A DNA stretch of 38,188 nt from an uncultured Oscillospiraceae bacterium (GTDB lineage: Bacteria; Bacillota; Clostridia; Oscillospirales; Oscillospiraceae), in assembly GCA_947626495.1 (NCBI GenBank), contig CANQSJ010000022.1:1-38188 (forward strand). The letters run 5' to 3'. The notes beneath the pieces were generated by a model. That model was not told the DNA's origin. It did no database searches and was given only the letters and a program-made list of their open reading frames with translations. Each line of letters begins with the position of its first letter. Within the stretch, counting starts at the first letter, position 1. This document shows, piece after piece, positions 1-38,188 of this stretch. The position numbers and the translations under genes were made by a program.

Positions 1-64
1 ATGGGAATCGAACCCACGTCCCCAGCTTGGAAGGCTGGTGCACTAGCCGTTGTGCTACGCCCGC
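1..64 (-). tRNA. tRNA-Gly (anticodon TCC), 3' end cut by window edge
   Basis: Read on the minus strand from position 64, the sequence gives a tRNA 5' acceptor strand GCGGGCG, a D arm, an anticodon stem CCAGC/GCTGG around the loop CTTCCAA (anticodon TCC, reads GGA glycine codons), and a T arm with TTCGATT. The window begins inside the gene, so the last acceptor bases are missing. The overlapping open frame on the plus strand is only a shadow. A well-formed promoter lies a few bases upstream (75-103). Confidence 0.93.
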
Positions 65-2070: not shown

Positions 2071-2190
2071 TTATACCATGTCGGTTGCGCGGTTTCCGGC
2101 GCAAACTGGGAGCGCGACCGGTATCTTTTGGTATAATAGCGCGGAGCGTCTGTTATACCATGTTGGTCGTGCGGTTGCAGCGCAAGCAGG
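2071..2190 (-). repeat. palindromic repeat, locus A (one diverged unit plus a truncated unit)
   Basis: One unit of the repeat family described at 5018-5259, followed by a partial second unit. Unit 1 (2075-2156) is 82 bases: it matches the 77-base unit but carries a 4-base insertion in the left outer arm and an extra T. Its second hairpin, between GGTATAATAG (2130-2139) and CTGTTATACC, retains pairing through one G-U. The second unit (2157-2190) starts normally with GTCGTGC and a GCAA loop but decays after GCAAGCAGG. On the minus strand the gene-proximal edge reads TGGTATAAT (2070-2078), pointing at spoIIR. Confidence 0.85.
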
Positions 2191-2261
2191 GTTTTGGAGA
2201 TGTACTGCACTTATCTCGTCTGCTCTCTGTGCAAGAACGTCAGACCAAAACGGTTGTATGT

Positions 2262-2741
2262 TCATTCTATCGCCTTACCAAAAATTCGCTCTCCGACTGA
2301 TGATGTACGAGAGAATTCAAACCCATTACGGAAATAAAAGCGTTCAGCCTTTTCAGCAGGATTAGTCTCTATATACTTTGCGCCCAATGATCGAAGATGG
2401 TTTTCGACGATTCGACATACAGCAGAACCAACACCGGAGCTTCTACGCTCTCTACATACATAGAAGTTGTTGATAAAGCCCTTGTTGCGTTCCTCATTAT
2501 ACGAATAGGTGATCAATCCAACGCAAACTTCATTTTCTACGATCCGCATAACAAAATACGGATCATGTTCTCGAAGCGTCTGCCCGATCATTTCCGCGTT
2601 CAGTTCATCATTGTGAAGATCGTCGATCTCCTCTTGATATTCTTCTTCGCCGCACACTTCGCTCAGAAACGTACTGAACAAATCATAGAAATCATCCCAT
2701 TCGTCTTTTTTCTGTAAATCAAATCGTATCAGTTTGATCAT
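2262..2741 (-). CDS. GNAT-family N-acetyltransferase
   Basis: The 159-residue protein resembles a single-domain GNAT acetyltransferase, transferring an acetyl group from acetyl-CoA to an unknown amine. The acetyl-CoA loop RRSSGVGSAV follows the strand NNFYVC, and the end of the domain has AEKAERFYFRNGF, the usual conserved C-terminal strand and helix. The DNA is clearly more AT-rich than its neighbours and uses many A/T-ending codons, which suggests recent acquisition. Its ATG lies 3 bases after the stop codon of a truncated reading frame (2745-2900), as if the two were once coupled. No terminator or own promoter is obvious. Substrate cannot be predicted. Confidence 0.85.
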   Translation of the reverse strand: MIKLIRFDLQKKDEWDDFYDLFSTFLSEVCGEEEYQEEIDDLHNDELNAEMIGQTLREHDPYFVMRIVENEVCVGLITYSYNEERNKGFINNFYVCRERRSSGVGSAVCRIVENHLRSLGAKYIETNPAEKAERFYFRNGFEFSRTSSVGERIFGKAIE

Positions 2742-2744
2742 AGC

Positions 2745-2900
2745 CTATACCAATTCGTTCAAATAAGAAATCAGATCATAGGGGAATTTGTTATTCATTG
2801 CATCGGCTGTCAGCACTCGAACTGCATATTCCTCAAAGACATTTCGTCTGCCTGCATTATCACCGGATAAATAATAGGATCCATCAACTGAATCATTGTT
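2745..2900 (-). pseudogene. remnant: C-terminal 51 codons of an unidentified AT-rich gene
   Basis: Immediately after the ispE stop, the same minus-strand frame stays open for 51 codons and ends at TAG (2745-2747), 3 bases before the GNAT start. The peptide contains GDNAGRRNVFEEYAV and ends FPYDLISYLNELV, which looks like a real soluble protein end, but there is no start codon or ribosome site. The AT-rich composition matches the GNAT gene, not ispE. It is best read as the tail of a gene whose 5' part was lost at the ispE junction. I do not recognise the family. Confidence 0.45.
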
Positions 2901-3755
2901 TTACGCCTGCCCGCCGGACCAGGGGCGGGTGAGCCAGCACTCCTGATACTGCCCGGCCAGCGCCTCCCAGGCCCGGCGGGCGGCCTCGCCGTCGTCAAAC
3001 AGGCCGAACACGGTGCTGCCGCTGCCGGTCATGGCCGCGCCCAGGGCGCCCATCTCCGTGAGGGCGCTCTTGATGGCGGCGATGCCGCTGCCCCGCCGGC
3101 CCAGCACGTCCTCGAACACGTTGAAGCTCCGCCGGGCCACCCCGGCCAGGTCGCCCTCCTCCAGCGCGGCGATCATCCCGGCGGTGTCCGGATGCAGTCG
3201 GCTCCGCCGCCGGTCGATCCGGGCGAACAGCTCCGGGGTGGAGATGGAGAAGGCGGGCTTGCACAGCACGATGGCGCATGCCGGCAGGGAGGGGAGGGGC
3301 GTGAGCTTTTCCCCCCGGCCCTCCGCCAGAGCGGCGCCCTCCGTCACGCAAAAGGGCACGTCGCTGCCCACCTGGGCGCCCAGCTCCGCCAGCGCCTGCA
3401 GGGAGAGGCCCCGGCCGGTGAGGGCGTTGAGAGCCCGGAGCACGGCGGCCGCGTCGGCGCTGCCGCCGCCCATCCCGGCGCACACCGGGATCCGCTTGAC
3501 CACGCGGATGTTTGCGCCCAGGCCGGTGCCCTCCAGGAACAGGCGCGCGGCCTTCACGGCCAGGTTCCGGCCGTCCGCGGGCAGATAGGACTGGCCGGGA
3601 TCGATGGTGAAGCTGCCGTCGCGGGTCAGCTCCACATCCAGGTCGTCGCCGAAGGCCACCGTGTGCATCACGGAGCGCAGGGCGTGGTATCCGTCCTCTC
3701 CGCGGCCCAGCACGTCCAGGGACAGGTTCAGTTTTCCATGGGCTGTTACAATCAT
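2901..3755 (-). CDS. ispE: 4-diphosphocytidyl-2-C-methyl-D-erythritol kinase
   Basis: IspE phosphorylates CDP-methylerythritol with ATP in the non-mevalonate (MEP) isoprenoid pathway. The 284-residue length is normal. It is a GHMP kinase: the N-terminal lysine (K8) in AHGKLNLSL, the phosphate-binding glycine loop PVCAGMGGGSADAA (residues 90-103), GSDVPF (130-135) with the catalytic aspartate, and the C-terminal motif MTGSGSTVFGLF. The start ATG overlaps the stop of apgM by four bases (ATGA), so the two genes are translationally coupled. Downstream the sequence passes abruptly into AT-rich DNA. Confidence 0.96.
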   Translation of the reverse strand: MIVTAHGKLNLSLDVLGRGEDGYHALRSVMHTVAFGDDLDVELTRDGSFTIDPGQSYLPADGRNLAVKAARLFLEGTGLGANIRVVKRIPVCAGMGGGSADAAAVLRALNALTGRGLSLQALAELGAQVGSDVPFCVTEGAALAEGRGEKLTPLPSLPACAIVLCKPAFSISTPELFARIDRRRSRLHPDTAGMIAALEEGDLAGVARRSFNVFEDVLGRRGSGIAAIKSALTEMGALGAAMTGSGSTVFGLFDDGEAARRAWEALAGQYQECWLTRPWSGGQA

Positions 3756-4984
3756 TTCTCAAATAGTATATCCAAAAGTTTCGTTCCCTCCGGCAGGAAC
3801 AGTCCGGTCTTCAGACCGTTTTTTTCCGTATAGCTCAGACCGGAGCACTCCCGCTCCCGGCTGTCGTAGATGAGGAAGGGCACCGGGTCGCCGTCGTGGG
3901 CCCGGTTGGCGGTGAGGGTCTTGTGGTCGGACAGCAGCAGGATCCGGAAGTCCTCCCCCGTGGAGCGCAGATACTCCACGATGGGCCCGGTCTCCCGGCT
4001 GGACAGCCACTCGATGGACTGAAGCTTGCCCGGGGTGTCCCCGTTGTGGGTGCACTCGTCCGGCGCCTCGATGTGCAGCGCGGCAAAATCGCAGCGGGAG
4101 AGGATCTCGATGGTCTTTTGGCACTTGCCGTCCCAGTTGGTGTCGATCTCCCCGGTGACGCCCTCCACCAGCGGGGCGGGCAGACCGGAAAGCCGGGCGA
4201 TGCCCCGGACCAGGGGCACGGCGGAGACCACCTCGCCGGTGTGGCCGTATTTTTCTGCGAAGTCCGGCAGCAGGGCGGCGGTGCCCTCCGCCCAGAACCA
4301 GATGCCGTTGGCGGGCAGCTTTCCCGCCGCCCGGCGGGCCTGGTTCAGCGGGTGGCGGTCCAAAAACCGGAACGCCTCCTCCTGCAGCCGGCCCAGCTTC
4401 TCCGCCACGGCGCAGCCGGAGGGAGCCAGCGGCCCGATCTGCTCGCCCAGGTGGTCGTGGGGCGGGATGAGGCGGATGCCGGCGATGTCCGCGTGGTGCA
4501 TGACCGCAAAATGGCGGAAGGAGGAACCGGGATTGATCTCGATGTCGTATTCCTTTGCCAGCGCGGCGAACGCCGGACTGGCCCACAGCTCGGTGATGAG
4601 CCGGTCGGCCGTCTCGCCGTCGATGGAGCCGGCGCTGTGGGAGAGGATCCGCCGCTGCCCGTAGGGCATGTCGCCGTCCTCCAGGGCCACCATGTTGCAC
4701 CGGCAGGCCATGTCCCCGTCGGCCAGTGCGATGCCCTGGGCGGCGGCCTCCAGCGGTCCCCGGCCGTGGTAATAGGCCAGGGGCGAGGCCCCGAAAATGG
4801 ACATGATGGCCGTGGCGCTGCCCGGCTCGAATTCCTTGGGGCAGTTGACCACGCTGCCCAGCAGTCCCCGGCGGCTCAGATCGTCGATGACGGGCTTGTC
4901 CGCCACCTCCAGGGGGGTCTTGTCTCCCAGCGCGGGCACGGGATTGTCCGCCATGCCGTCGCCGATGATCAGAAGATACTTCAT
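3752..4984 (-). CDS. apgM: cofactor-independent phosphoglycerate mutase, archaeal (ApgM) type
   Basis: A 410-residue member of the alkaline-phosphatase superfamily, ApgM branch. These proteins interconvert 3- and 2-phosphoglycerate; the same family in bacteria has also been proposed to be a homoserine kinase, so substrate is not certain. Visible metal-site motifs are LIIGDGMADNP at the N-terminus (D9), HIEAPDECTHNGD near residue 300 and LLLSDHKTLT near residue 350. The ATG at 4984 was chosen because GAGGAG lies 7-8 bases upstream; the open frame continues to 5071 only because it runs into the 77-base repeat array. The gene is followed by ispE with a 4-base overlap. An extended -10 (TGGTAAAAT, 5019-5027) at the repeat edge is the best promoter candidate. 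Confidence 0.9.
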   Translation of the reverse strand: MKYLLIIGDGMADNPVPALGDKTPLEVADKPVIDDLSRRGLLGSVVNCPKEFEPGSATAIMSIFGASPLAYYHGRGPLEAAAQGIALADGDMACRCNMVALEDGDMPYGQRRILSHSAGSIDGETADRLITELWASPAFAALAKEYDIEINPGSSFRHFAVMHHADIAGIRLIPPHDHLGEQIGPLAPSGCAVAEKLGRLQEEAFRFLDRHPLNQARRAAGKLPANGIWFWAEGTAALLPDFAEKYGHTGEVVSAVPLVRGIARLSGLPAPLVEGVTGEIDTNWDGKCQKTIEILSRCDFAALHIEAPDECTHNGDTPGKLQSIEWLSSRETGPIVEYLRSTGEDFRILLLSDHKTLTANRAHDGDPVPFLIYDSRERECSGLSYTEKNGLKTGLFLPEGTKLLDILFEK

Positions 4985-5017
4985 TGTGCGCTCCTCTTTT
5001 CTGGATTCACGGTTGGT

Positions 5018-5259
5018 TATTTTACCATGTCGCGCGGTTCCGGCGCAAGCCGGGAGCGCGACTGGTATCATTTGGTATAACAGCGCTCTGCGTCTGTTTT
5101 ACCATGTCGCGCGGTTCCGGCGCAAGCCGGGAGCGCGACCGGTATCGTTTGGTATAACAGAGCTCTTCGTCTGTTATACCATGTCGCGCGGTTCCGGCGC
5201 AAGCCGGGAGCGCGACCGGTATTATTTGGTATAACAGAACTCTTTGTCTGTTATACCAC
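5018..5259 (-). repeat. tandem palindromic repeat array, locus B: three 77-bp units
   Basis: Three units start at 5024, 5101 and 5178, and the same edge recurs at 5255, giving an exact 77-base period. Each unit holds two structures. The first is a nested hairpin: outer arms GTCGCGC/GCGCGAC (5029-5035 with 5056-5062), internal loop GGTT/GA, inner stem CCGGC/GCCGG and a GCAA tetraloop (5045-5048), with TACC/GGTA able to extend it. The second is GGTATAACAG paired to CTGTTATACC around a variable 10-base loop. Units differ mostly in that loop and in single bases. On the minus strand the edge next to apgM reads TTGCGC, 18 bases, TAAAAT, preceded by TGG. Confidence 0.95.
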
Positions 5260-5279
5260 GGTTCCTGTCGCGGGGCAAC

Positions 5280-5307
5280 AAAAAACCGCCGGAACTTTGT
5301 CCGGCGG
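5280..5307 (-). terminator. intrinsic terminator of the DUF1622 gene
   Basis: On the minus strand an 8-base stem (CCGCCGGA with TCCGGCGG) is followed by six T residues. It lies 12 bases past the stop codon of the gene at 5320-5745. Confidence 0.88.
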
Positions 5308-5319
5308 CTGTAGGTGAAA

Positions 5320-5745
5320 CTATGGTTTCTCCGGTGATTTCTCCGGGGGCTTTCCCGGGTGCAGTCTCTTGCGGCTGAGAACGGAGGCGGGATCGTCCGA
5401 CAGACTCTTGTACAGCGCCTCGATCTTGGCCTCCTTGGTGATCTCCCAGTAGATCAGCGCCGCCACAAGACCCCGCAGGAGAATGATGACGAAGATGCTC
5501 ACCAGCTCCGCCGTCTCCGTGGCGATCACTGTGCGCAGCACCTCGCCGCCCATTTTGAAGGCCAGGGCCAGCAGGATGCCCTCGGAGAGGGTGGTGCGCA
5601 CGTCGGGGGAGCGCTTGATCCACTTGCGGATGCTGACGATGGCGGTGGCCAGCAGCACCAGTACGCCAAAGGACTCCAGGATCAGGATGCCCCATTCCAC
5701 GATGTAGTGGAAGAGAGCCTGGGAATTGCTCAAAACAGCTGCCAT
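5320..5745 (-). CDS. DUF1622-family membrane protein
   Basis: A 141-residue protein of unknown function that fits the DUF1622 family. Hydrophobic helices lie at about residues 12-38 and, in the second half, at 80-100, with the conserved stretch GGEVLRTVIATET between them and a helix IVILLRGLVAALIYWEI. The C-terminus is charged and Pro/Lys-rich. The ATG at 5745 has AGGAGG about 9 bases upstream; an ATG eight bases earlier is out of frame and too close to that site. It has its own promoter (5776-5804) and terminator, so it is probably monocistronic. Role unknown. Confidence 0.82.
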   Translation of the reverse strand: MAAVLSNSQALFHYIVEWGILILESFGVLVLLATAIVSIRKWIKRSPDVRTTLSEGILLALAFKMGGEVLRTVIATETAELVSIFVIILLRGLVAALIYWEITKEAKIEALYKSLSDDPASVLSRKRLHPGKPPEKSPEKP

Positions 5746-5775
5746 TGACCATCGCCTCCTGTCTTATTTTATACA

Positions 5776-5804
5776 ATTTTACTATATCGGCAGGAGGATG
5801 TCAA
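5776..5804 (-). promoter_or_regulatory. promoter of the DUF1622 gene
   Basis: On the minus strand TTGACA (5799-5804), a 17-base spacer, then TAAAAT (5776-5781). It sits between the stop of the GNAT-Nudix gene and the DUF1622 start, so the latter is independently transcribed. Confidence 0.8.
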
Positions 5805-5817
5805 TAGTTTGCCGGGC

Positions 5818-6681
5818 TCAGATCTCCGCGCCGCCGGCCTCCATGGCCGCCAGATAGTCCCGGGCAGCGGTGAGCACGCGCCTGTCGTCGGCGTAGGTGA
5901 GGCTGTCCAGCGCCTGGTCAAAGGGGAGAAAATGCACCTGGCGGATCTCCTCGGGCTGGGGCACGGCGTCCGTGCTCTCCGTCCGGGCCAGGAAAAAGAC
6001 GACGGTTTTCACCCGGTCGGCAAAGGCGCTGTAGCGGGATATGGCCCGGAAGTCCCCCACGAAGGTCACGTCCAGGCCGGTCTCCTCCCGGATCTCCCGG
6101 CGGGCGGTCTGGCGCTCGTCCTCGCCGGGTTCCATGTGGCCCTTGCACAGGGCGGTATGGCCCTTGTGGGTGGTCTCGGTCAGCCACAGGGTCCGGCCGT
6201 CCCGGCGGGCGAAGATGGCCGCGCCGCAGCAGCGCTCGTCCAGCCGCAGCTCCCGCCCGGGATAGCAGACCAGCCGCACCGCGCCGTCCGCGCCCTCCCC
6301 GTCGGTGGAGAAGCCCATCTGCGCAAAAAACCGGCGGGCCTTATCCGCCGTCTCCGGCACATAGAGACACACCCTGTCCGCGCCCAGCGAGGTCATGTCC
6401 CGCAGCGCCGCGGACAGCATCCACCGGCCCAGCCGCCGGCCGTGATAGGCCGGCAGCAGATACAGCGCCGTCAGCTCGCTCCAGCCGGCACTATCCGTCC
6501 CGCCGGCGGGGCCGTAGCCGACCGCGCCCACCGCCTGTCCGCCGTCCCGGAGGACGAGGACCTGCCCGCCGGGGACCACCGGCCGGAGCCGGCAGTGGGG
6601 ATACGCCCGGCACAGCGGGGCAAGGTCGTCGGAGGGCGTCAGGGGAGACAACGTGATAGAAACAGGATTATGGGCATGCAT
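5818..6681 (-). CDS. GNAT acetyltransferase-Nudix hydrolase fusion
   Basis: A 287-residue two-domain protein. Residues about 5-145 are GNAT-like: SELTALYLLPAYHGRRLGRWML aligns with the acetyl-CoA loop region, but its glycine pattern is altered (HGRRLG where RGxGxG is usual), so CoA binding may be weakened. Residues about 150-287 are a Nudix domain with an intact box: G181, E187, R195-E196, E199-E200 and G202. This domain should hydrolyse a nucleoside diphosphate linked to another group. Start chosen at the ATG at 6681, with GGAGG upstream; the frame extends further only through the rplL terminator. No separate promoter is seen, so expression may come from readthrough of rplJL. Substrate unknown. 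Confidence 0.85.
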   Translation of the reverse strand: MHAHNPVSITLSPLTPSDDLAPLCRAYPHCRLRPVVPGGQVLVLRDGGQAVGAVGYGPAGGTDSAGWSELTALYLLPAYHGRRLGRWMLSAALRDMTSLGADRVCLYVPETADKARRFFAQMGFSTDGEGADGAVRLVCYPGRELRLDERCCGAAIFARRDGRTLWLTETTHKGHTALCKGHMEPGEDERQTARREIREETGLDVTFVGDFRAISRYSAFADRVKTVVFFLARTESTDAVPQPEEIRQVHFLPFDQALDSLTYADDRRVLTAARDYLAAMEAGGAEI

Positions 6682-6703
6682 GGTACCGCCTCCGATGCTT
6701 TGG

Positions 6704-6740
6704 AAAATGCAAAAGGGCCCGGCTCTCCGGAGCCGGGCCC
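6704..6740 (-). terminator. terminator of the rplJL operon
   Basis: On the minus strand GGGCCCGGCTC and GAGCCGGGCCC form a perfect 11-pair stem with a 4-base loop (6715-6740), followed by TTTTGCATTTT. The interrupted T run may let some transcription pass into the GNAT-Nudix gene. Confidence 0.85.
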
Positions 6741-6777
6741 CTGCGGGGCCGAGACCCCTCAAAAGCGCGATATGGAA

Positions 6778-7149
6778 TTACTTCAGCTCGACCTTCGCGC
6801 CCACGTCCTCCAGGCGCTTCTTCAGCTCCTCGGCCTCTTCCTTGGAGACCTGCTCCTTGATGACGGCGGGGATGCCCTCCACCTTCGCCTTAGCCTCGGC
6901 CAGGCCCAGGTTGGTGATGGCGCGCACTTCCTTGATGACCTTGATCTTCTCAGCGCCGAAGTCGGTCATGACCACGTCGAACTCGGTCTTCTCTTCCACA
7001 GCGGGGCCGGCGGCGGCAACAGGAGCGGCCACGGCGGCGGCGGCGGAGACGCCGAAGGCGTCCTCGATCGCATGTACGAGCTCAGCCAGCTCGAGAACGG
7101 ACAGACCCTTGATCTCCTCGATCATAGCGGTAACTTTTTCGCTAGCCAT
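6778..7149 (-). CDS. rplL: 50S ribosomal protein L7/L12
   Basis: L7/L12 forms the flexible stalk of the large ribosomal subunit that recruits elongation factors. The 123-residue protein has the N-terminal dimerisation helices (residues 1-35), an Ala/Pro-rich hinge (about 37-52), and the conserved C-terminal domain with [21 protein letters not shown]. It follows rplJ with a gap of about 50 bases and ends before a strong terminator. Length and order are standard. Confidence 0.98.
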
Positions 7150-7201
7150 TTCTTTTATTCTCCTTCAAAATAGTAATCAGTTGTCGGTTGGATGGGGCCG
7201 C

Positions 7202-7732
7202 TCACTCGGCGGCAGGGGCTTCCTCAGCGGGAGCGCCGCCCTTCTGCTCCAGGACCTGGCCGAGAACGACGGCCAGAGAAGTGATGGGGGCGAGCATGGT
7301 GCCAAGGACCTTGGAATACAGCGCGTCACGGCTGGGCAGGGGAGCCAGCTCCGCCACCTCGGCGTCGCTGAGGACCTTTCCGTTGACGAAAACGCCCTTG
7401 ATGGTGAACAGCTGTCCCATTTTGTCGCTGAACTCGGTCAGCTCATGGATGGGGACCAGGGGATCGGTGGCGCTGGTGGCCAGGCTGGTGGTGCCGTTCA
7501 GGTGGTCGTCCAGACCGGACAGACCGGCCTTGTCCAGAGCCAGGCGGGTCAGGGTGTTCTTCACCACGGTGTACTCCACGTCCTTCGAACGCAGATCACG
7601 GCGCAGCTCGGTATCCTGGGCCACGTTGATGCCCTTGTAGTCCACCAGCACGCCGCCCTCGGCCTCCTTCAGCCGCTGGGCCAGAGCCTCGACGATGGCC
7701 TGCTTTTCGGTCAATACTGCTTTGCTGGGCAT
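7202..7732 (-). CDS. rplJ: 50S ribosomal protein L10
   Basis: L10 anchors the L7/L12 stalk to the ribosome and represses its own operon by binding the leader. The 176-residue protein begins MPSKAVLTEKQAIVEAL and contains VDYKGINVAQDTELR and VVKNTLTRLAL, both conserved in L10. The C-terminus is Ala/Glu-rich and would form the helix that holds L12 dimers. Start at 7732 was preferred to upstream methionines because AGGAGGTG lies about 11 bases upstream. The gene is preceded by an L10-type leader (7733-7864) and a strong promoter. Confidence 0.97.
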   Translation of the reverse strand: MPSKAVLTEKQAIVEALAQRLKEAEGGVLVDYKGINVAQDTELRRDLRSKDVEYTVVKNTLTRLALDKAGLSGLDDHLNGTTSLATSATDPLVPIHELTEFSDKMGQLFTIKGVFVNGKVLSDAEVAELAPLPSRDALYSKVLGTMLAPITSLAVVLGQVLEQKGGAPAEEAPAAE

Positions 7733-7864
7733 AGGTTTCGTTTCACCTCCTGTATAAAGAAAAATGTCCTTGTCCAAAGAGACAACGACACATAGAAACA
7801 TCACGATCCTATTTGACGTCCTCGGCGGGACTTACGCCTTGCGGCTGCCTGCTGTCTTTGAACG
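7733..7864 (-). promoter_or_regulatory. ribosomal protein L10 leader (autoregulatory mRNA element)
   Basis: The minus-strand transcript between the promoter and rplJ contains the L10-leader core: AAGACAGCAGGCAGCC, a short GC-rich hairpin, then CCCGCCGAGGACGTC, followed by a second helix before the ribosome site. This matches the known L10 leader of Firmicutes, where free L10(L12) represses the operon. Boundaries are approximate. Confidence 0.8.
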
Positions 7865-7870
7865 GCCATT

Positions 7871-7899
7871 ATCTTACCAGAACCGGGCGGCGTTGTCAA
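7871..7899 (-). promoter_or_regulatory. strong promoter of rplJL
   Basis: On the minus strand TTGACA (7894-7899), a 17-base spacer ending TGG, then TAAGAT (7871-7876): a consensus -35 with an extended -10. Predicted start is about 7864, placing the whole L10 leader in the transcript. Repeat locus C begins 24 bases upstream. Confidence 0.85.
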
Positions 7900-7922
7900 G
7901 ATTTTTTTCGCCGGAGCGCTGT

Positions 7923-8008
7923 GGTATAACAGAAGCTGTGCGCTGTTATACCAAAAAGATACCGGTCGTGCTCCCGGCTTGCGCCGGAACCGCACGACAT
8001 GGTAAAAT
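7923..8008 (+). repeat. palindromic repeat, locus C (single unit, inverted relative to A and B)
   Basis: One unit of the 77-base family in opposite orientation. The distal hairpin is GGTATAACAG paired with CTGTTATACC (7923-7952). The nested hairpin spans 7965-7998: outer arms GTCGTGC (7965-7971) and GCACGAC (7992-7998), inner stem 7974-7978 with 7983-7987, and loop TTGC on this strand (GCAA on the other). Relative to the B units, one pair in the outer arm changed on both sides and pairing is kept. The gene-proximal edge reads TTGCGC (7979-7984), 18 bases, TAAAAT (8003-8008) preceded by TGG, facing the gene at 8094. Confidence 0.92.
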
Positions 8009-16468: not shown

Positions 16469-17623
16469 TCAGAAATCGTAGCTCTTGCACACAGGGGCGT
16501 CTGCGTTGGCGGAGTCGGCGTCGTACCAGATCAGGTTGTTGCCGCTCTCCTTGTCGAACAGCTGGATCAGCTCGGGCTTGGTCGAGAATTTCACCGTCGC
16601 GCCCATACTCACGTCCACCTTCAGATCCACCGTGGGGATCACCATGACCACCTCGTCGCCGTTGCTGTCCGCGTGCAGGTGCACCTCCGAGCCCATCATC
16701 TCGTTCACCACGATCTTCGCCTCCAGCTCGCCCTCGCCCACGTTGATGTGCTGCGGCCGGATGCCCGCGATGATGTCGCACGCCTTCGCCCCGTTCGCCT
16801 TCAAAGCCTTCTGCTGGAACTCGCTCAGCTTGATCTTCGCGTTCCGGATCTGGGCGTAGTACTCCCCGTTCTCCACCAGCAGCTGGCAGTTGTCGAAGAA
16901 GTTCATCACCGGCATCCCGATGAACCCCGCCACAAACAGGTTCACCGGCTTGTCGAATACCTCTCCCGGCGTGCCGATCTGGTTCACGTAGCCGTCCTTC
17001 ATGATCACGATCCGGTCGCCCAGCGTCATGGCCTCCGTCTGGTCGTGGGTCACGTACATGAACGTGGTGTTGATCCGGCTGCGCAGCTTGATGATCTCCG
17101 CCCGCATCTGGTTACGCAGTTTCGCGTCCAGGTTGGAAAGCGGCTCGTCCATCAGGAACACCTTCGGGTCCCGGACCATGGCCCGGCCGATGGCCACGCG
17201 CTGCCGCTGGCCGCCGGACAGCGCCTTGGGCTTCCGCTCCAGGTACTGGGTGATGTCCAGAATCGCCGCCACTTCCTTGACCTTCTTGTCGATCTCCGCC
17301 TTGGGCACCTTCTTCAGCTTCAAAGCGAAGGCCATGTTGTCGTACACCGTCATGTGGGGATATAGGGCGTAGGACTGGAAGACCATGGCGATGTCCCGGT
17401 CCTTGGGCTCCACGTTGTTGCACAGCTTCCCGTCGATGTACAGCTCGCCCTCCGTGATGTCCTCCAGGCCCGCCACCATACGAAGCGTGGTGGACTTGCC
17501 GCAGCCGGAGGGGCCCACCAGCACGATGAACTCCTTGTCCGCGATGGACAGGTTCACATCGTGCACCGCCGTGACGCCGCCGTCATAGACCTTCTTCAGA
17601 CCCTTCAATACGACTTCAGACAT
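16469..17623 (-). CDS. sugar ABC transporter ATP-binding protein (MsmK/UgpC type)
   Basis: A 384-residue ATPase that powers carbohydrate uptake permeases. Walker [10 protein letters not shown] (37-45), the Q-loop [11 protein letters not shown], signature LSGGQRQR (135-142), Walker B VFLMDEP (155-161) and switch histidine in [12 protein letters not shown] are all intact. The C-terminal 150 residues form the TOBE/regulatory domain of the MsmK, MalK and UgpC group. No permease or binding protein is adjacent; such stand-alone ATPases often serve several sugar transporters, as MsmK does in streptococci. It has its own promoter (17833-17861), a leader of about 200 bases and a terminator. The ribosome site before ATG is weak (AGAGAG). 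Confidence 0.95.
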
Positions 17624-17832
17624 GTTTTATCTCTCTGGCAGCCGGGCCTCCGCCCATGCCGCCTCGCGCCGGCCACGAGAGCCGGACCGCTTTACGACAG
17701 GTCTCCACACTGCCGCACCGCGAGAGCGCGGTTCCTTTTCCTCCTTTTTTATGGGCCCGCGGCGCTATGATAGAGGAGTAGCGGCGCGGATCCTGATTGA
17801 TGAAGTGATGCCGGGGTCGATGTTATAAAGTT
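17624..17832 (-). other. long structured 5' leader of the ABC ATPase gene
   Basis: About 200 GC-rich bases between the predicted start and ATG. Visible elements on the minus strand: an A/G run AAAAAAGGAGGAAAAGG (near 17734-17750) that looks like a ribosome site but has no start codon at proper distance, then the hairpin ACCGCG/CGCGGT, then overlapping CCGG-rich stems up to the start codon. I recognise no known riboswitch. Confidence 0.4.
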
Positions 17833-37825: not shown

Positions 37826-38188
37826 GGGGCTGCAATGGTTTCGACGGGGGCGTGGGGGCGGAATAAGCGGGCGGATGACCCGGACATCCTTAAAACTGGG
37901 AACCTTTCAAAGTAACTGAGAACGACAACACCGTTCTGGCCGCCGCTTAAGGCAGGCCCGTCCAGCCCGGGAGCGCTGCGGCCCGGGGCCTGGGCGTCGA
38001 CTAGCAGCGTCCGTGCGTGCGCAAAGCTTTGAGCGCACCATGCATCATGAAGCTACCTGACCCGTATCGCGTGACGGCTTGCGCCGGGAAGGGGAAGAGC
38101 GCCTCGAGCGCAAAATAACCGCCTGCGCCCGGAGAAAGTTCCGCTGAAGTGCTTTCGGACAGGGGTTCGATTCCCCTCAGCTCCACCA
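37826..38188 (+). ncRNA. ssrA: transfer-messenger RNA (tmRNA)
   Basis: A 363-base one-piece tmRNA with encoded CCA. The 5' strand GGGGCTG (37826-37832) pairs with CAGCTCC (38178-38184), including the G-U pair used for alanine charging. GGTTTCGACGGG follows the 5' end, and the T arm is AGGGGTTCGATTCCCCT. The likely tag frame is 37918-37950, Glu-Asn-Asp-Asn-Thr-Val-Leu-Ala-Ala-Ala then TAA, following AAAGTAACT; the resume codon is an inference. The tag ends LAAA-like, which suits recognition by ClpXP. All open frames crossing this region are shadows. Confidence 0.96.

Follow-up and report, generated by a model that had tools for sequence, protein, structure and literature searches.

The window, that is, the whole stretch of 38,188 nucleotides analysed here, from an uncultured Oscillospiraceae bacterium, carries a three-unit tandem array upstream of apgM, the gene for a 2,3-bisphosphoglycerate-independent phosphoglycerate mutase (Table 1). 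TRF reports a repeat of period 77 at 5023-5258 (3.1 copies, 94% matches, score 416). Unit starts fall at 5024, 5101 and 5178, and ACC, the edge sequence, is found again at 5255, which bears out the three 77-bp units claimed in an earlier sequence-only reading of this DNA. By folding, each unit has the two hairpins that had been described. Hairpin A consists of the foot ATACC/GGTAT, the stem GTCGCGC, a two-base GG bulge, TTCCGGC and a GCAA loop; hairpin B has the arms GGTATAACAG...CTGTTATACC. The stems had been called intact, which holds for the B stems of units 2 and 3, but that of unit 1 has one mismatch (GGTATAACAG/CTGTTTTACC). Changes between units had been placed mainly in the second loop, and they do lie mainly in the linker and hairpin B. 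The array was rightly held not to be CRISPR: whole 77-bp units repeat, with no spacers between them. At gathering thresholds no Rfam 15 family matches over the element in the window, and six element loci compared with Rfam 15 gave no element match up to E=1.

Table 1. Features of the apgM locus and of the other two occupied promoters in the window; -10 and -35 boxes are predictions.
Feature	Position	Strand	Basis
Array of three element units (A-B-A-B-A-B), period 77	5022..5257	+	TRF and covariance model
Matches of the three units	5022-5098, 5099-5175, 5176-5257	+	covariance model
Hairpin A, unit 1 (gene-proximal)	5022..5068	+	model R2 match
Hairpin A, unit 2	5099..5145	+	model R2 match
Hairpin A, unit 3 (gene-distal)	5176..5222	+	model R2 match
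Hairpin B, unit 1 (one stem mismatch)	5074..5103	+	sequence
Hairpin B, unit 2	5151..5180	+	sequence
Hairpin B, unit 3; outer arm holds the gene-distal -10 box	5228..5257	+	sequence
Native apgM -10 box, TAAAAT in gene sense, adjoining the array	5019..5024	-	predicted; orthologue comparison, logo
Second -10 box, TATAAC in gene sense, made by the hairpin B end	5250..5255	-	predicted; logo
Native -35 box TTGCCC, 17 bp from the distal -10	5273..5278	-	predicted
apgM (2,3-bisphosphoglycerate-independent phosphoglycerate mutase), downstream gene	3752..4984	-	Pfam PF10143, PF01676
apgM Shine-Dalgarno	4991-4996	-	
apgM start	4984	-	
Second locus: one unit at the spoIIR -10	2073..2159	+	gene by PF09551
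Third locus: one unit at the -10 of a YcdB/SLH-domain gene (start 8094)	7923..8005	-	PF16244, PF00395

The array has a predicted -10 box at each end. The native box of apgM adjoins it on the gene side and is preceded by TGG, as in an extended -10 (predicted), and the other box is made by the end of hairpin B. TTGCC stands at the same -35 place in most of the apgM orthologues read. Single units are found at two more promoters in the window, those of spoIIR, where a decayed hairpin A is also seen at about 2161-2192, and of a gene for a YcdB/SLH-domain protein (here ycdB-like). Given these and further copies elsewhere in the genome, the array is well beyond chance. BLAST within the own genome finds 8 places. 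A covariance model built from 11 copies (R1) gives 11 strong matches there (75-101 bits) at eight loci, three weaker ones at 33-42 bits, and ten below 29 bits that are mostly the opposite strand of the same places. Three of the eight loci with strong copies (eleven loci if weaker copies are counted) fall within 6 kb, at 2073-8005 of the window. Two other genomes, G001 and G021 (G and L numbers are our designations for genomes and loci), are also occupied at some of the spoIIR, apgM and ycdB-like promoters.

Among 60 genomes searched, the own genome and 59 relatives, 32 have matches to the element. They include 30 of 34 congeners, with up to 41 matches each (none in G004, G020, G022 and G023), and, of 25 genomes from other genera, one. 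A dispersed family would have been contradicted by a lack of other copies; the search of the genome and its relatives instead found many, at eight own loci and in those 30 congeners. A pattern scan of named genomes returned 108 stretches with the element (L062-L169), all from MAGs labelled Lapin, which we take to mean rabbit gut; most are named as uncultured Oscillospiraceae, and three otherwise (Clostridia, Lachnospiraceae, Acetatifactor). Model R2, made of hairpin A alone from 13 variants and wider than R1, matches in 19 of 295 genomes across the order at E up to 0.001, and in 2 of 391 across the class at E up to 0.0001; these two belong to the own family. Relatives with three hairpins (C-A-B) occur in several other genera and other families of the order, with tandem spacings of 108-114, and some C-A-B units are also present in the own genome (L020-L022). 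C-A-B arrays are found among L215-L263, for example L247 (G294) and L237 (G066). The C-A-B copies of G294 and G143 include near-identical ones, which suggests activity in the recent past. No match to an already described family was found in Rfam, in the phage, plasmid and viral sets or in the literature searched; the viral-contig pattern scan, phage BLAST and plasmid BLAST each gave no match to the element.

The sequence-only reading had suggested selection on structure, and the alignments argue for it. The covariation set comprised 100 of 267 loci (139 matches, 120 distinct). In the 120 distinct rows, 98.6% of paired cells hold standard pairs, in an alignment fitted to the model's structure, which favours pairing. 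Changes on both sides of a pair amount to 124 cells at 11 pairs, against a shuffled mean of 44.1, and none of 500 shuffles of this model-fitted alignment was as high. Without a model, complementarity of the B arms in 155 copies is 0.741 versus at most 0.625 in 1000 shuffles. Of the 148 copies that could be parsed among these 155, 147 retain the GG bulge, and CATG, GCGGTTC and GGAGC with the GG bulge are conserved in the alignments. As judged from these comparisons, the structure of the element is evidently maintained by compensatory change. Strand-specific (ssDNA) recognition was considered from wobble pairs: one T.G pair persists in 119 of 120 rows, and at another pair seven rows are unpaired (mostly C.A) versus two with T.G. 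This evidence is mixed, and therefore no claim on such recognition is made.

The exact placement of the element at the -10 box is a feature that the sequence-only reading did not contain. Read outward from the neighbouring gene, the element starts exactly at that gene's sigma-A -10 box and ends in a second, -10-like box. Of 169 distinct hits, 165 score at least 40, and the B end was not found in 10 of these 165. Junctions with enough flank for the promoter tests number 106 on the right and 123 on the left; the block tests used 113 blocks, 110 of which do not start at another B hairpin. The logo of 138 non-tandem left junctions, in gene sense, reads CATGG followed by T (.93), A (.99), T (.75), A (.80), A (.79) and T (.68), a motif that is a putative extended -10 box. 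The right end, formed by hairpin B, is mostly TATAAT or TATAAC in gene sense, and the logo of 112 non-tandem right junctions has the -10 motif at the B end and TTG (.56-.61) at the -35 place. TTG occurs at a spacer of 17 in 39 of 106 right junctions and at 16-18 in 57 of 106, versus 0-3 of 106 at each spacer of 10-15 and 19-25; by blocks it is present at 16-18 in 59 of 113. Within the window only the apgM locus has TTG at 16-18; it is absent at spoIIR and the ycdB-like gene, whose copies also adjoin a -10 box. A start codon with a Shine-Dalgarno sequence follows within 160 nt on the promoter side at 79 of 123 left junctions. The corresponding counts are 33 of 106 at the other side of the element and 693 of 3000 for places picked at random. 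The downstream genes include, by Pfam, those for phosphoglycerate mutase, SpoIIR, a YcdB/SLH protein and a MutY-like protein and, as recognised by eye, UvrB, MurA and glucose-6-phosphate isomerase. One exception is the copy at L068, which lies not in a promoter but at the 3' terminus of a coding region.

Orthologous promoters carry the element in some genomes and are empty in others. apgM was found in 30 of 35 genomes, and the 30 upstream regions were read by eye. The promoter is occupied in five: the own genome (3 units), G001 (1), G003 (decayed), G034 and G018. In G021 (L186) hairpin B stands alone at the -10 box, without hairpin A, possibly a product of excision or deletion; the remaining 24 have no unit. 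In one clean pair, G018 reads ...CGTGGTACAAT[element]CATGGTACAATTGACAAAAATC, versus ...CGTGGTACAATTGACAAAAATC in the empty G032; a second is formed by G034 (occupied) and G009 (empty). The ycdB-like promoter is occupied in the own genome and G021, versus ...ACGCTATGCTATAATCAATAATG with no insert in G001, and an element HMM finds a copy upstream of this gene in 2 of 30 loci fetched. At spoIIR the HMM likewise finds 2 of 30 loci, the own with one unit and that of G001 with four A hairpins, the last lacking B. G021 appears to retain only a decayed hairpin A at spoIIR, and this site is therefore an array-length difference, not a clean empty site. A masked screen for empty sites gave candidates for 9 copies, not all of them convincing, including L043/L111, L124/L073 and L068.

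In G294, ten near-identical copies lie in eight stretches, their shared part bounded by TTATAGC-like motifs. Their flanks are unrelated and the native -10 boxes vary; one copy is truncated at the right end. The latter (L248, G294:C12, about 7215) lies beside a stretch that by eye resembles the C-terminal remnant of a large serine recombinase. Orthologous sites that are filled in some genomes and empty in others, together with near-identical copies in unrelated flanks, indicate that the element is mobile by its behaviour. A REP/MITE-like dispersed family had been proposed from the array alone, and the genus-wide and dispersed copies, the compensatory changes and the orthologous sites that are occupied or empty agree with it. 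Hairpin A alone is found at L127:7240, directly upstream of GGTATAATGGGG, and L172, at about 2060-2155, has nearly the surroundings of L127 without hairpin A, before a short broken frame that by eye resembles a transposase start.

We consider it likely that these copies represent a family of mobile elements in Oscillospirales, short, palindromic and non-autonomous, that insert into the -10 box of sigma-A promoters, present here in a two-hairpin A-B form of about 77 bp net. The insertion itself follows from comparison of sites; how the element moves and how the promoter acts are inferred. At apgM, in gene sense, the comparison runs from TTGnnn-N17-TATAAT to TTGnnn-N17-TATAA[hairpin B - linker - hairpin A - CATGG]TATAAT. 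The two ends of the element, CCATG... and TAAYAG..., have no inverted match (junction logos, G294 copies), and the insertion junction lies at or next to -13/-12. When the native hexamer is compared with that at the far end in copies of the genus, C at position 3 agrees in 4 of 12 versus 4 of 98 cases (p=0.005), position 1 gives p=0.12, and position 6 shows no association. Cases at positions 4-5 are few; in an earlier count on 93 single-unit copies, 1 of 17 and 1 of 23 deviating targets agree. Statistically, the shared target would thus be the first three bases (TAN) of the hexamer. The simplest reading would be a duplication of TA or TAN, with the far-end AAT or AAC belonging to the element; a model of cleavage with no target duplication may also apply. 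Copying of the inner arm of B from the target was considered and rejected, since the fit of the two B arms to each other is far closer than their fit to the native -10.

After insertion, the original -35 would pair with the -10 of hairpin B, and transcription would run through the element into the gene. The native -10 would gain an extended TGG from the element and might provide a second start. A gene with the element is probably still switched on. If transcription proceeds through the element, insertion would therefore be tolerated in housekeeping promoters. An enzyme acting in trans would recognise the GG-bulged hairpin A. As a unit restores the target at its end, repeated insertion would be expected: every unit would re-form an insertion site at its far end and further units could be added head to tail, with slippage adding more.

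The arrays are consistent with growth of both kinds. The 113 blocks comprise 87 single, 16 double, 7 triple and 3 quadruple ones. In 23 of 39 adjacent array pairs the two members are each other's nearest relatives among the units compared, and other pairs are plainly unlike (for example L141, 0.82, and L043, 0.83). Arrays thus grow by local duplication and by the joining of different copies. Recent tandem duplication, which the sequence-only reading offered for the array, therefore fits the mutually closest pairs but not those that are clearly unlike.

How the element comes to lie in promoters can be read in more than one way, all compatible with mobility. It might recognise simply a sequence like GGTATAAT, such sites being mostly promoters in a G+C-rich genome, and we give this close to an even chance. 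Outside elements, TTG is present at 16-18 in 98 of 298 TATAAT sites and in 27 of 43 TGnTATAAT sites, and the feet of the hairpins can base-pair with the target sequence. Because TGnTATAAT sites themselves often have TTG, a simple preference for the sequence accounts for much of the location at promoters. However, at targets that depart from TATAAT (TACAAT, TATACT, TAAAAT, TATGAT and others) TTG exceeds the expectation from hexamer-matched non-coding sites, for which the non-coding filter was crude. With one mismatch it is found at 30 versus 12.0 expected (n=52), and with two or more mismatches at 8 versus 1.0 (n=26, expectation available for 22). At exact TATAAT targets the figures are 19 versus 11.0 (n=32), and over all blocks 57 of 110 versus 24.0 (expectation available for 104). 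We read the excess beyond the hexamer as a preference for promoters or as survival in them, since the hexamer-matched test would fit either; purging of harmful insertions could contribute to it. A more specific proposal, which we put forward as tentative and somewhat doubtful, is that the element targets functional sigma-A promoters and not just a sequence, perhaps at the upstream fork of the open complex formed by RNA polymerase, and carries a replacement -10, so that each insertion would rebuild the promoter and remain a target for the next unit.

An improbable explanation of the family is a REPIN-type repeat moved in trans by a RAYT or an IS200-type (HUH Y1) transposase. The accessible parts of two papers describe REP and REPIN sequences as short, non-autonomous extragenic palindromes that form ordered tandem clusters (PMC3116915, PMC3733652), and the element resembles them in these respects, as in its bulged palindromes and its target-internal pairing. 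A Y1_Tnp domain (PF01797) is found in 12 of 35 congeners, in G183 as two weak matches (25.7 bits, above the cut-off, and 20.3 bits, below it), and in G143 as a broken remnant. However, the own genome lacks it, as do 6 of 8 carriers outside the genus (G294, G042, G085, G130, G066 and G318, 90-100% complete), and it is present in 3 of 4 element-free genomes in the same search. G294, which is 99% complete and has 10 equal-scoring element copies, has none. Inspected by eye, the Y1 proteins in the genus resemble ordinary IS200 TnpA, and the two Y1 loci whose surroundings were read (L170, L172) have ends that differ from those of the element. The element model finds a copy near 1 of 14 Y1 loci in the genus (L172, in G009, about 650 nt away); it is the only one, so its proximity is probably chance. 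The mixed wobble evidence also gives the explanation no help. The link to a RAYT that the sequence-only reading had thought worth looking for is thus unsupported, as Y1_Tnp does not track the element.

Other mobilisers fared no better. An IS630-type transposase (PF13358, DDE_3) is present in 0 of 19 genomes, 16 of them carriers, and IS110 (PF01548) in 5 of the same 19, one below the cut-off, and does not track the element. As for an autonomous version, at four places with hairpin A only (about 700 nt and the ORF list, by eye) no transposon with the ends of the element was recognised, nor was any transposase by eye in the ORFs around some of the G294, G085 and G143 copies.

The element also differs from REP and REPIN sequences in having no linked RAYT that was found and no unpaired GTAG or CGTC tag in the alignments. 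TGTC at the foot of hairpin A in the own genus is base-paired, and TGTT is found in the others. REP sequences of the 2013 survey lie downstream from coding regions, so far as its accessible text goes, unlike the element, which is at promoters upstream of genes, and a term search of that text gave no mention of Firmicutes or Clostridi- (PMC3733652). Correia elements and other MITEs carry sigma-70-like promoters and often lie upstream of genes, according to the accessible part of a further source (PMC10969869). The element is likewise non-autonomous and intergenic and brings promoter parts. Unlike them, it has no terminal inverted repeats and has two or three separate hairpins; its insertion point is precisely the -10 box, in many cases at a distance of 17 bp from the native -35; and no DDE_3 transposase accompanies it in the 19 genomes. 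Since the RAYT test fails and both the tag and the terminal inverted repeats are lacking, we file the element outside both the REPIN and the Correia/MITE families. The attC sites of integrons are imperfect hairpins with extrahelical bases, as are the hairpins of the element, but no gene cassettes were noticed around it. Insertion of IS5 at fucAO creates a fusion promoter, as stated in the part of the source available (PMC11894529); the element differs in being gene-less, 77 bp long and inside the -10 box of many genes, with a box at both ends.

A structured regulatory cassette had also been raised for the array. Understood as a fixed cis-regulatory module of a regulon (an operator or structured leader), with tandem copies tuning expression, it seems very unlikely to us. 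The fixed orientation to the gene, the conserved structure and the promoter position all suit it. However, a fixed regulon is unsupported because the genes downstream of the copies are unrelated and occupancy of orthologous promoters is patchy (5 of 30 loci read at apgM and 2 of 30 each at spoIIR and the ycdB-like gene), and array length varies at the same site, from 3 units (own) to 1 (G001) at apgM and from 1 (own) to four A hairpins (G001) at spoIIR. Single copies that have been domesticated for a regulatory role are possible. Local tandem duplication alone, with no mobility, is scarcely credible: it would fit the 23 of 39 adjacent pairs that are closest to each other and holds for part of array growth, but is refuted for the family by dispersed copies in unrelated places, empty orthologous sites and arrays of unlike units.

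On the preferred reading, that of a mobile element inserting into the -10 box, the kind of entity is known, namely, small dispersed mobile palindromes, and the new part would be the habit of nesting in promoters. Small mobile repeats usually persist between genes, and this family appears to persist inside the promoter core by restoring it. A parallel is found in elements that integrate into tRNA genes and restore the tRNA, as the element would restore the -10 box. One to four units stacked on housekeeping promoters form a natural series in gut bacteria. They raise the question of how a gene-less element of 77 bp locates the -10 box, and what enzyme mobilises it. The open-licence literature searched holds no description of an element inserted at the -10 box, an absence that is weak evidence.

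Four further features of the window deserve mention. A ribosomal protein L10 leader (RF00557) lies beside the third copy, on the divergent side (7750-7879, minus strand). A malK-I RNA (RF03069, 131 bits) is found at 17618-17796 (minus strand), upstream of a frame that by eye resembles an ABC transporter ATPase. A tmRNA gene (37826-38188, plus strand) occupies one end of the contig, and a tRNA match is cut off at the other (1-64, minus strand).
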